From the NCBI GenBank assembly GCA_963575745.1, contig CAUYUJ010009446.1, forward strand, positions 125,646 through 189,645: a stretch of 64,000 nucleotides of DNA, written 5' to 3'. The position numbers were made by a program, and so were the translations under genes. Under the pieces are notes generated by a model. The model had not been told where the DNA came from and ran no database searches. It worked only from the letters and a program-made list of their open reading frames with translations. The DNA comes from Prorocentrum cordatum (Eukaryota; Sar; Dinophyceae; Prorocentrales; Prorocentraceae). Every line of letters starts with the position of its first letter. Positions within the stretch are counted from its first letter, which is position 1. Of the stretch, positions 24,904-63,420 are shown one piece after another.

Positions 24904-25017
24904 ATGGAGCAGGAAGAGGAGGACGACGACGACGCCGACGACGACGACGAGCAGGAGGAAGAGACGCGACAGGCCTTCAACCAGCTCACGAAGGGCCTCA
25001 TGGAGCGGTCGGTGGAG
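24904..25017 (+). CDS. MoxR/RavA ATPase, exon 1 (N-terminal helix)
   Basis: Thirty-eight codons if the ATG at 24904 is used. A very acidic stretch (Glu/Asp, residues 2-20) precedes TRQAFNQLTKGLMERSVE. The last 15 residues match the helix before Walker A in RavA-type proteins (GL-ER motif). The donor is GAG|GCGCGATCC at 25018, a GC donor. A GT alternative exists at 25012 but would remove two residues, and spacing from ERS to LLAAL is right only with the GC donor. An alternative 5' boundary is an AG|GCC acceptor at 24972/24973, which would discard the acidic part as intron. So the start is uncertain and the helix is firmer. Confidence 0.65.
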
Positions 25018-25043
25018 GCGCGATCCGTCTCCATCGCCAGAAG

Positions 25044-25380
25044 AGAGGAGGAGGAGGAGGAGGAGGAGGAGGAGGAGGAGGAGGAGGAGGAGGAGGAGGA
25101 GGAGGAGGAGGAGGAGGAGGAGGCGGAGAGGAGGAGGAGGGGAGGAGGAGGAGGAGGAGGAGGGAGGAGGAGGGAGGGGGAGGAGGAGGGGGGAGGGGAG
25201 GGGGAGGAGGAGGAGGAGGAGGAGGAGGAGGAGGAGGAGGAGGAGGAGGAGGAGAGGAGGAGAGGAGAAGGAGAAGAGGAGGATGATGATGATGATGATG
25301 ATGATGATGATGAGGAGGAGGAGGAGGAGGAGGAGGAGGAGAAGAGGAGGAGGAGGAGGAGGAGGAGGAGGTGGAGGGCA
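25044..25380. repeat. (GAG)n / GGA-rich tract in intron 1
   Basis: Nearly pure GAG with GAT (25280-25312) and AGG variants, starting 26 bp after the exon 1 donor. Poly-Glu (+ strand) and poly-Ser/Pro/Leu (- strand) frames are artefacts. Confidence 0.95.
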
Positions 25381-25629
25381 TTTGTTTGTGTTGAAAGTTT
25401 CATAGCAGTGGAGCGCATGTCGTCGAGCTTGGCAAAGCATGCGGACCGTTCACGGTCACGAGTGTTCGTAAGATGCGGCCCCTCAAGGAAGACCTTCATT
25501 GTAACAAAGAGCAGGTATCAGTCGATATTGACGAAACCGTTGCACTGCTTTGATGTTTACGTTTCGCCTCCGAGCTCCTGCTCGAACCTCGAACTGGAGC
25601 TCCATCTGTCACCCTGGGGCAGTGGCGTT

Positions 25630-26700
25630 GCGAGGAGGAGGAAAAAGAGGAGGAAGAGGAGGAAGAGAAGGAGGAGGAGGAGGAGGAGGAGGAGGAGGAG
25701 GAGGACCAGTGTAAACCCAAGAGTCACCAACGATGTTGGAAGAAACCCTCCCCCAAAGCTCCGTCCTCATAGGCCCCATACAACGGTTCACTTCCATAGA
25801 GGGACCTGCCACGTTGGAAGACAACCGTTTGAAGACCCTGAAGCATGTCAAAACATTATTCTCGGTATTCCAATGCCACGGATGTACCTGACTCTTGCGT
25901 CTTGACGATCCTGAATCGTGCCAGAACGCACTTCCTGGGACCTCAACTCCGCGAATCATCCTGCTTGTTGCGCCCTCAAAATCGTGAACCTTTCCAAAAC
26001 ACCATTTCTGATACGCCACCAAGGGCATCTGTGAAACTTTTGAAATGTTGTGTCCGGAATGTGCGCGGCGCGCAGGCGAGAACCACATTTTGAAAAGGAG
26101 CCGCCTTCAATCCATGAAACTCCTGCTAATTTTGAAAACGAATGCGCGCGGCGCTACGGCGAGAGCCACATTTTGAAAAGGAACCGCCCCCAATCCGCGA
26201 ATCCCTTGCAAATGTTTTAAACGAATGTGCGCGGCGCTAAGGCGAGAGCCAAATTTTGAAAACGACCCGCCCTCAGTCCGTGAAGCCCTTGCAATTGTTT
26301 AGAGCGAATGCGCGTGGCGCTCAGGCGAGAGCCACATTTTGAAAACGACCCGCCCTCAACCCGCGACTCTTGCAAATATCAAAAGCAAATATGCGCGGCG
26401 CTAAGGCGAGAGCCACATCTTGAAAACGACCCGCCCTCAACCCTTGAATCTCGTGCAAAGTGCAAAGCAAATATGCGCGGCGCTAAGGCGAGAGCCACAT
26501 CTTGAAAACGACCCGCCCTCAGTCCTTGAAGCTCTTGCATTTTTGTTCGAATGTGCGCGGCGTAGGGCGAGAGCCACACGTTAAAAACGACTCGCTTTCA
26601 ATCCGTGAAGCTCCTACAGTTTTTGAAAGCGAATGTTCGCGGCGCCAAGGCGAGGGCAAAATGTTGAAAACCACCCGCCCTCCATCTGTGAATCAATTGC
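25630..26700 (-). repeat. composite repeat R-B array + R-A + (TCC)n, copy 4 (inverted, longest)
   Basis: On the minus strand from 26700: about nine R-B units of ~63-65 bp (each with GTGGCTCTCGCCTTAGCGCC and the GGGCGG segment), then R-A (26000-25720) with GTCCCAGGAAGTGCGTTCTG-like motifs, the AACATCGTTGGTGACTCTTG end, TACACTGGTCC and the TCC tract (GGA on +, 25640-25705). It lies wholly within intron 1. Confidence 0.88.
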
Positions 26701-26814
26701 CAATTATGAGATTTCTGGGTCATGATGGTGAGGAAGTTTTAGGCGAAACCGCCGGCCCGCCCTAAAAACTAGCCTCGGGGTGCGACAGGGCCAAGCTATT
26801 TATAAAGAGAAAGA

Positions 26815-60772: not shown

Positions 60773-60784
60773 CAACTCGGTTCT
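60773..60784. repeat. target-site duplication of LINE D, right copy
   Basis: CAACTCGGTTCT, identical to 50972-50983, immediately next to the first base of the DinoSL. Confidence 0.9.
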
Positions 60785-63200
60785 CTCCCTCCTCGTAACC
60801 TCCACTTTGTCCCTGGGGTCCCCGAGGCCATCCTGAAACAACAGATGAATCAGATCGAACGTTCTCTCCGATCCCCCACCACCTGTCGCTCGTTCACTAT
60901 TGGCGACTTAAACTACTTCGAGACGGGAGAAGCCAGACTTTCAGCGCGCGATGGAGAGGAACGCCCCACCCACAGCAGATCGGCAGAAGCATTCTCTGAG
61001 CGGTTCCGCGAGCACGGCGAGATCACTCAGGCGGGATTTAGATTTCAAGCCAAGCCAGCAAATTCCTTCACGCTGGCCAGGATTGATCGCATCTACTCGA
61101 GCACCCCGGCAGCCGACCTCCTCGACCTCTCTCTTCAAAGTGGCGCCGAATTGATTGTCCAGGACTGCCGGAGGCCCTCAGATCACGCGCCCGTCTTCCT
61201 CTACCTCAACCCCCTGAGTGAGCGCCCCGACAATCCGATCGCCCCGAGGTGGATCGCCCGACGTGTTCGATATCGAGAAGCCCTGAACGAACACCCTCGA
61301 TCCGTCGAGCTGGCCGACCCCTTCCCTGAAAGGTTCTTGGACATCAAATCCTGGATGCGGCGCGCGGCCGAACGCACTCGGATGGCGGTTGTTTCCTTGG
61401 GGGCTCGAACGGGCGCTTAGAAGGTTTCTTGTTGTGCGAAGCTGCTAAGATCTTCTCGGGCGGGACTAACACGCGCGTGTAGGCAGGCCGTCAAGGTTTG
61501 CCCCTTCCTGGAGCGCTCCTACGATTTGGACCTCGAGCTGTGGGCGGGCGCCCGCGGATTCCATGCGCACCTGGCATGATATAGAACTCTACTCGCTTTC
61601 GCGTCTGCGTTTCAAGTCTGGCTATTCGCAGCGCTGGCCGCATATGGTCTGCCAGATACCATTATCAAAGCATTGGAGGCACTGTATAGTAATGTGGTCT
61701 GTCTGATATTCATAGGTGCTATGCAAGCAGTTCCATGCATTCAATGCTGGTCGAGGGATTCGGCAAGGATGTCCCCTTAGTGGTCCCCGATGGGCCATTG
61801 CTATGGACCCCCTACTTCTGGCGCCTGACCATCTCCAACCTCGGTGTCCTTATGTTCCTTCTGCGTTTGCTGATGATCTCTGGGTGGCCGCTTTCAGTCT
61901 CTATGATACCCTACCGCATGTTATACATGCTACTCGTGAACATGGTTCTATGTCTGGTCTCTCTGTGAACCTCAAGTGCATGATCATGACGTTTAAGCAC
62001 GTGCCCCGAGAGCGGATCCAGAGTCTATTTCTCGAGCGCGGCCTCGACGTCAGTGAATCCCCGATCGCTGAGCAGGCCACCTCCCGTGGGATCCCCGTGG
62101 GAGCGGGTGCGAGAGAGAGAGAGAGAGTTGCCTGGAGTAAGGTCAGCGGGAAGATGGGGAGGATGGTTAACGAGGTGAAATGTTTTGGGCAGGGTCTGAC
62201 CACGTCCACTGTTGCATTCAATCGTTATTGTGTCCCGATTGCATCACGCGTTGCCCAATTCTACTCCATCATCAGAAAGGCCAAGCTCAATGAAAAGAAG
62301 AACTACCAGCTTCTCACCCATTGCCCTGGGCACGCATTCCCGCCAGCATCCATAAAGAGGTTGACCGAGCTCGGGCATCCTGTTGTTTGTCGTTGCCTGG
62401 AAGTGGTTTCCAAGGCGACTATGATTCGTGCTGCGCACGCCTCCGAGTCCTTCCAGAATATGTTGCATACGTGCCGCGGGAACCTGAACAGTGACTACGG
62501 TAACCTTACTTGGAAATGAAGCCATTATCTCAATGATTCGTTTTTGTTGTTCAGGCGTATATGGTTCATCCCCAGTTTCTTGTGGATCTTCCCATCCCCG
62601 ACGACGCCCCCACTAAGCAGATCCAACGGGAAGCCACCAAATACATCCAGGAAGATACCCGAACATGCAATATAACCAGCGTGTTCGAACGTAGTTTTCG
62701 TAAGCTCCTAGGACCTGTCTCGGTTGATGAAGTATTCAACACCTGGTTGCGCAGTGGCCTGCTTAAGAGAGCCAAGCTTCCGACCTTCGTCATTTCCAGC
62801 GTCGCCAAGGCGATTTTCAATGGGTGGAGCACGACCCGCCGATATCGCCAGGCAGGGGGGAGATGTGTCTGGGGATGTGGTGGTGGAGGTGACAACATGT
62901 TGCATGATGCTTGCTGCTCGCCCGTGGTGCCCACCATCCGTCGTGCCCGGCATTACCTACCTCTGGGCGGGGGATCTGAGCCTCTCGCTGTCATTTTCCC
63001 ATCGCGCTTTGTGTTTTCCTCCATTCAATCGCCCCCCTCTCATTATGTCGCTGTGGATCTCATTCGCTATGGTTTCCAATCCTGCCGTGCCTCGCATGTC
63101 TCCGCCCGTCGTGCCGCCCGCCTCATTCTAGCCCGTTTCAGGTGCCCTGCCCGTCGCTCCGGGCAGGTCCGCGCGCCCTGTCAGGGAAGAATTCGGTCGC
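60785..63200 (+). pseudogene. LINE B endonuclease C-half, reverse transcriptase and C-terminus
   Basis: Endonuclease: RNLHFVPGVPEAILKQQMNQ, SFTIGDLNYFETG (GDxN, about 60897), TLARIDRIYSS and DHAPVFLYL, to TAG near 61420. RT motif A is eroded (LLAFASAFQVWLF, about 61590). Motif B is GIRQGCPLSGPRWAIAMDPL and motif C AFADDLWVA (frame 61716-62519, about 61870). The C-terminal frame 62561-63190 has FNGWSTTRRYRQAGGRCVWG and a His/Cys cluster (CGGGGDNMLHDACC). Frame breaks fall near 61420-61716 and 62520. Inactive. Confidence 0.82.
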
Positions 63201-63212
63201 TCAAGGGGTGCG

Positions 63213-63290
63213 ATTCCTCCTTCTCTCCTTCATCTTCTTCCTCCTCCTCCTCCTCCTCTTCCTCCTCCTCCGCCTCCTCCTCTTCCCTCG
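63213..63290. repeat. TCC-rich tract before exon 6
   Basis: (TCC)n with TTC variants. It borders the 3' end of LINE B and lies 38 bp upstream of the exon 6 acceptor, so it may double as the polypyrimidine tract. Confidence 0.9.
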
Positions 63291-63327
63291 CCCCACCCCC
63301 TTTGCGCTGGGAAGGGGCTGCTGGCAG

Positions 63328-63420
63328 GTGCCATTGTGGTGCGCAGTGGCTGCTTCCAACGAGCTGCCTGACACGGACGAGCTGGACGCGCTCTACGACA
63401 GGTTTTTGTTGAGGCGCCAG
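63328..63420 (+). CDS. MoxR/RavA ATPase, exon 6 (sensor 1 and arginine finger), 3' boundary approximate
   Basis: Phase 0: VPLWCA, then VAASNELPDTDELDALYDRF and LLRRQ. ASNELP contains the sensor 1 Asn and LYDRFLLR the arginine finger, both matching RavA (AASNELPE, LYDRMLIR). The acceptor is CTGGCAG|GTG. The 3' end is uncertain: GC at 63412 or 63424, or GT at 63441, could serve as donor, and family similarity fades after RRQ. The rest of the gene lies beyond the window. Confidence 0.92.

Follow-up and report, generated by a model that had tools for sequence, protein, structure and literature searches.

The window analysed here is a 64,000-nucleotide stretch of DNA from the bloom-forming alga Prorocentrum cordatum (C9446:125646-189645, within a 4.13-Gb assembly), and it contains six very small exons that join into the core of a MoxR/RavA AAA+ ATPase. 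This is the type of gene, dinoflagellate, nuclear and finely divided, that an original prediction made from the letters alone had recognised in it. The six predicted pieces are present at their coordinates in a single reading frame, each with a length divisible by three, and a database search with the 183-residue joined translation places it in the MoxR/RavA family. The join matches Pfam bpMoxR (PF20030) with an E value of 1.8e-54 and 184.4 bits, residues 21-181 lying on profile positions 3-163, the NCBIfam RavA model PRK13531 with E 6e-54, and Escherichia coli RavA in the PDB with E 1.9e-46.

All six exons are on the forward strand. Exon 1, in the revised form justified below (AFNQLTKGLMERSVE, 24973..25017), follows a CAG|GCC acceptor, ends at a GC donor and scores 40.9 compared with 22.2 elsewhere. 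Exon 2 (27116..27211) encodes the Walker A motif GSPGTAKS, with equivalents of RavA A51, K52 and S53, and exon 4 (46098..46181) encodes the Walker B motif AFIDEIFK, with the equivalent of D114. Between and after these lie exon 3 (FFERLLTRFSVPEEIFGPLSLQ, 42925..43008) and exon 5 (ANSSILNTLLMILNDRCFDNG, 46887..46964), both supported by spliced alignment and by related proteins. Exon 6 (63328..63413) carries the YDR arginine finger, equivalent to RavA R170, together with AASNELP, which we take to be the sensor 1 region.

The exon boundaries were recovered independently with a purpose-written splice-aware aligner, which compares a profile with DNA, allows introns in three phases, and accepts GT, GC or GA donors and AG acceptors. 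It was given a profile of ten relatives and none of the predicted coordinates. On positions 24800-47200 it returned exons at 24973-25017, 27116-27211, 42925-43008, 46098-46181 and 46887-46964, and on the whole window the same five plus a sixth at 63328-63417. Because the aligner was blind to them, its return of all five predicted junctions (25017/27116, 27211/42925, 43008/46098, 46181/46887 and 46964/63328) reproduces that part of the prediction; its score was 577.5 for the window, compared with 45.6 for the reverse complement and 48.2 for a reversed profile. Related proteins contain the same joins. Among the matches listed (25 alignments, from rows for 171 proteins), P0009, P0010, P0011 and P0121-P0124 align with residues 24-182 at 84-86% identity with no gaps, and as P0010, P0011 and P0123 carry MMETSP transcript names, RNA of the relatives encodes these pieces joined.

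Both ends of the six-exon model require correction. The predicted N-terminus, an ATG followed by an Asp/Glu-rich run (24904..24972, forward strand), most likely belongs to an upstream intron, as its purine-rich end, with exon 1 starting after CAG at 24973 and not at 24904. We read it in this way because the seven relatives named above leave residues 1-23 unaligned and begin at AFNQL, immediately after the CAG|GCC acceptor at 24972/24973, and because an upstream exon exists (see below). The starting points among the 170 aligned relatives are mixed, and it should be weighed against this revision that 25 of them, including P0127 and P0128, have their first aligned position within residues 1-10; for 118 it falls at residues 18-31, and the five early starters that were inspected show just 3 to 6 identities each across residues 1-23. 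At the other end, AGGCGC is common to the end of exon 6 and the start of exon 7, which makes the boundary ambiguous; exon 6 ends at about 63413, with a GC donor at that position, and at 63417 at most. The Gln that closed the predicted protein falls outside the product, as the relatives continue with RRC, whose Cys is encoded in exon 7 (at 69256).

The gene does not stop at the window. A tblastn search with relatives revealed more pieces downstream, on the same strand and in order, and the aligner resolved these into nine further forward-strand exons (window coordinates throughout): exon 7 at 69256-69343, exon 8 at 83327-83413, exon 9 at 89782-89817, exon 10 at 92585-92653, exon 11 at 136692-136739, exon 12 at 136946-136987, exon 13 at 140578-140655, exon 14 at 145095-145148 and exon 15 at 154705-~154755. 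Collinear and on one strand, the nine together score 304.0. As controls, the reverse complement reached 40.7, the 75 kb upstream 38.8, 40 kb taken from other contigs 35.7 and a reversed profile 45.7. When each profile segment was scored on both strands of 223 kb of the contig, its own exon was the highest-scoring place in 15 of 15 cases, with the narrowest leads at exons 8 (30.7 vs 20.5 elsewhere), 9 (32.7 vs 21.5), 11 (46.4 vs 30.4) and 15 (28.1 vs 17.2).

Upstream, a whole-genome search with the relative P0124 gave a match at C9446:54343-54465 with an E value of 0.18 and a TAG inside the extended match. Here the aligner places a forward-strand exon at C9446:54367-~54456, following CACAG|GCC and encoding AERARLGHELASPSHLLLALTSGSFAVGAL, which belongs to a Clp_N domain. 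It scores 81.9, compared with a maximum of 36.3 among 300 random 1-kb pieces; these pieces were scored under a stiffer intron penalty, which has no bearing on the score of the exon itself because that result is a single exon. Within the 223 kb it scores 79.2, the next places reaching 17.4 and 15.7. A second forward-strand exon starting at C9446:60378 (DTLRALGADPKQLRLR; P0124 counterpart GALQELGVDPKQLRLV) is tentative, as its score is weak. In all, 16 exons are located, plus the tentative 17th, each of about 36-96 bp, and they occupy C9446:54367-280400 on one strand. The original prediction of a gene spread over more than 38 kb understated its extent, which on the contig is about 226 kb.

The fifteen exons beginning with the one at 24973 are separated by 14 introns of 206 to 44,038 bp, the longest being intron 10. 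The five inside the window contain no N, and the two predicted to exceed 15 kb do so, at 15,713 and 16,363 bp, both gap-free. Donors are GT in six introns, GC in five and GA in three, and every acceptor is AG followed by G (14/14). The published P. cordatum genome description gives donors of 24.7% GT, 51.4% GC and 23.8% GA, with 79.7% AGG acceptors (PMC10666404). The agreement of splice signals is to be expected and is no independent proof of the model, because the aligner requires GT/GC/GA and AG and favours AG|G; similarly, the finding that 13 of 14 introns are in phase 0 carries little weight because phase 1 or 2 introns are charged one half-bit more. The ends of the introns were also compared for inverted repeats of the introner type. 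The longest was 10 bp (intron 4), where 100 random pairs gave 9 at most; each of the other 13 introns stayed within its own random maximum, and we make no claim of introners.

The region between 25 and 63 kb, which had been described as otherwise blank, is not so. Intron 5 holds two long open frames on the reverse strand, one of 2080 codons (51361-57603) with matches to RNase H (8.4e-07) and, below the Pfam cut-off, to reverse transcriptase (7.5e-04), and an adjoining one of 909 codons (57747-60476) with no Pfam match at E 0.001. With its RNase H and weak reverse transcriptase matches, the first is a retroelement resembling a long interspersed nuclear element (LINE), lying in the intron and outside the protein, and the second is probably the first frame of the same element. 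The 2080-codon frame has an unusual domain order for a LINE-like element: RNase H comes first, followed by a stretch that looks by eye like an endonuclease and by the weak reverse transcriptase match. In intron 1, at window positions 26057-26692, an 83-bp unit is repeated in tandem 7.8 times, with long GAG/GGA runs on either side.

The extended model gives a 342-residue product that matches AAA_lid_8 with E 2.8e-16 and E. coli RavA residues 17-286 with E 4.8e-58. It reaches 186.9 bits with bpMoxR, and like the 184.4 bits of the window join this exceeds the curated cut-off of 27 bits. In E. coli RavA the nucleotide is bound by A51, K52, S53 and D114, while the neighbouring subunit contributes R170 as arginine finger and R251 as sensor 2 (PMC6987120). 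By alignment the first three fall on GSPGTAKS (exon 2), D114 on FIDE (exon 4), the arginine finger on YDR (exon 6) and sensor 2 on SDRR (exon 10). It had been predicted that the window exons held every catalytic motif in order, and this is accurate for Walker A, Walker B and the arginine finger, but the trans-acting sensor 2 arginine and the AAA lid are present only in the extended model, beyond the window. The located exons as modelled contain no stop and no frameshift, and in comparisons with three paralogues second codon positions differ by 0.15, 0.17 and 0.12 and third positions by 0.43, 0.48 and 0.57; the conservation being greatest at second positions, this indicates selection on the protein. 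The natural reading of the sequence is a working ring ATPase, with its assembly into a ring and its client both presumed.

E. coli RavA (PDB 6q7l and 3nbx) shares with the window gene the AAA+ module, with Walker A and B motifs, arginine finger and sensor 2; it differs in that the alignment stops at RavA residue 286, leaving its C-terminal arm and LARA domain unaligned. No LARA match was obtained in five algal proteins, nor in two bacterial homologues run alongside, a comparison that had no positive control. The PRK13531 equivalog cut-off of 681 bits is missed by the window join (183.9 bits, from a partial protein), by the full-length relative P0124 (229.8) and likewise by a Vibrio homologue (283.8). 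Closer to the gene are other dinoflagellate RavA-like proteins, which have the same MoxR AAA+ and lid, preceded in several cases by a match to Pfam Clp_N; the comparison with them covers their protein sequences. Green-algal RavA-like proteins (Chlamydomonas P0032, Chlorella P0019 and Picochlorum P0031) also combine MoxR AAA+ with AAA_lid_8, and in the tree no group lies closer to the dinoflagellates; unlike the window gene, Chlamydomonas P0032 has no Clp_N match. P0011 and P0123, which are listed as complete, have N-terminal leaders that by eye resemble targeting sequences. Organelle targeting of the window gene's own protein is possible.

The tree comprised 57 rows (24 of 80 loci, 31 listed proteins, the window model and a paralogue on contig C21363) and was built by a quick search with support from the Shimodaira-Hasegawa-like approximate likelihood ratio test (SH-aLRT) only, with midpoint rooting and with cyanobacterial homologues left out. 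The window model falls in an eight-row clade with P0009 and P0121-P0126 (SH-aLRT 96), nested in a dinoflagellate group of 21 rows (SH-aLRT 100; one row of unknown source), where the dinoflagellate status of metagenome rows such as P0121, P0122 and P0124 is itself deduced from tree position. This group joins the green-algal homologues (SH-aLRT 93), apart from proteobacterial RavA, and the prokaryote rows lie outside both groups save for one, labelled only 'bacterium', among the greens. The suggestion that the gene is notable as a bacterial protein acquired by this genome is not borne out, since the tree nests it among dinoflagellates and then green algae. Database entries already bear the name, as in Symbiodinium 'ravA' (P0129) and Durusdinium 'ATPase RavA' (P0128), and a literature search for dinoflagellates together with RavA returned two papers whose titles concern other matters. 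The protein belongs to a known family; its gene stands out by its size, and the genome stands out by a gene fusion at another locus.

This genome has further RavA-like copies on contigs C14649, C14259, C21363 and C19022, and three MoxR copies that are more distantly related on C15089, C159 and C5112. In C14649 (L001) and C14259 (L002) the AAA core is in one uninterrupted frame, where the window gene has five introns; these intron-free copies are possibly retroposed. At C21363:110911-113388, on the reverse strand (L017:3912-6389), an 826-codon frame encodes a ViaA-like vWA domain (NCBIfam match, 5.6e-33), then Clp_N (9.2e-11) and the RavA N-terminus; the remainder of the AAA core, with the lid, follows in a second frame downstream. 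Like the window gene, this paralogue has Clp_N followed by a RavA-like AAA+ and lid; unlike it, it has the ViaA-like vWA fused, and a single open frame covers it from the counterpart of exon 3 as far as the lid. The whole-genome search, in which six candidates were scored, showed no ViaA-type vWA partner beside the window gene, its one ViaA-like match below E 0.3 being the C21363 fusion. By eye, C21363 near 108270 and 110950 shows an intron a few bases from the position of the window gene's intron 2 and apparently in another phase, which might reflect two independent gains at almost one position.

We propose that the window is the middle of one P. cordatum gene for a protein with Clp_N, MoxR AAA+ and lid that belongs to the algal RavA-like family, made up of at least 16 exons over about 226 kb, and put the probability of this at roughly 87%. 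Several observations count against it. Three of them (the N in introns 7 and 10, the weak exon at C9446:60378 and the missing residues after it) would fit two or more genes, or a scaffolding error, with the window exons forming one real unit and the far exons belonging to another copy. A stretch of 100 N, presumably marking a scaffold gap, interrupts each of introns 7 and 10, and C9446:115646-125645 includes 2,500 N, so that the linkage of exons beyond the window rests partly on scaffolding. The exon at C9446:60378 scores 25.1, where the opposite strand of that 10 kb reaches 20.0 (22.7 vs 14.7 elsewhere in the 223 kb), and neither the approximately 39 residues between it and exon 1 nor anything before the Clp_N exon was found, in an upstream reading that passed over C9446:64901-75645; no Clp_N exon was found in the 75 kb directly upstream (forward 32.2, reverse 32.4). 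The last ~110 residues were likewise not found downstream as far as window position 173354 (forward 23.3, reverse-complement control 28.7). However, every added exon contributes the part that the protein lacks at that point, in the right order and on the right strand, and all eight C9446 matches in the whole-genome search, in which only the best candidates were scored, fall on eight of the modelled exons. We regard separate genes or a scaffolding error as unlikely.

A different possibility is that the locus is a decayed or unexpressed copy and that its intron-poorer paralogues do the work. This would account for a further observation against our proposal, the lack of a P. cordatum transcript or annotated protein of the gene among the best 120 of 4993, 5944 and 1496 matches, although a lower-ranked fragment could have escaped notice because only these best matches were listed, and it would agree with the intron-free AAA cores on C14649 and C14259 and with the failure to locate the first and last exons. 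It is difficult to reconcile with exons that are free of stops and frameshifts as modelled, with the retention of the nucleotide-binding residues, with 84-86% identity to seven relatives over the window exons and with second codon positions that are the most conserved, and we think it very unlikely. That small open stretches should by chance have assembled into the likeness of an AAA+ ATPase, as might be imagined from exons of only 36-96 bp, is a negligible prospect given a score of 577.5 against 45.6 and 48.2 in controls and a family match at E 1.8e-54.

If the locus is a single working gene, we infer that in P. cordatum long transcripts would be spliced through the dinoflagellate GT/GC/GA-AG|G signals to give a full-length protein of about 700 residues. 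This would act as a ring ATPase in whatever compartment it occupies, binding ATP between neighbouring subunits: one of them would hold the nucleotide through its Walker A and Walker B motifs (exons 2 and 4, respectively), and the next would contribute its arginine finger and sensor 2 (exons 6 and 10, respectively). Hydrolysis would then drive remodelling of a client, whose selection would fall either to the Clp_N and C-terminal parts or to a partner with a vWA domain. One could imagine mixed rings in which vWA-Clp_N-RavA subunits from C21363, with the one ViaA-like adaptor detected in the genome built in, co-assemble with subunits lacking vWA, such as the product of the window gene, but we consider this improbable. 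The related CbbQ-CbbO machine is reported to have a 6:1 stoichiometry (PMC5437159). Were mixed rings to form, they would set the number of adaptors per hexamer, as that ratio does for CbbQ-CbbO, and a gene of about 226 kb or longer would make the dose of vWA-less subunits slow and limited by splicing. Dinoflagellates use form II Rubisco. As CbbQO activates form II Rubisco in Acidithiobacillus (PMC5437159), a role as Rubisco activase can be suggested by analogy; we have not adopted this idea, and it stays a low-probability one because green algae carry the same RavA-like family.

The gene shows how far a dinoflagellate gene may be stretched, with about 700 residues distributed over about 226 kb. 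The P. cordatum genome description gives a mean gene length of 24,462 bp, a mean intron of 4,709 bp and a G+C content of 59.7% (PMC10666404); the window has the same G+C content (59.7%), the gene is about nine times the mean length and many of its introns exceed the mean. A review singles out a dinoflagellate intron of 26,372 bp as notable (PMC11453091), and the 44-kb intron exceeds this if the scaffold gap holds. As no P. cordatum protein for the locus appears among the matches listed, genes of this kind may be absent from the catalogues of similar genomes. For the family, the vWA-Clp_N-RavA fusion suggests, by the gene-fusion argument, that ViaA and RavA act together in algae too.

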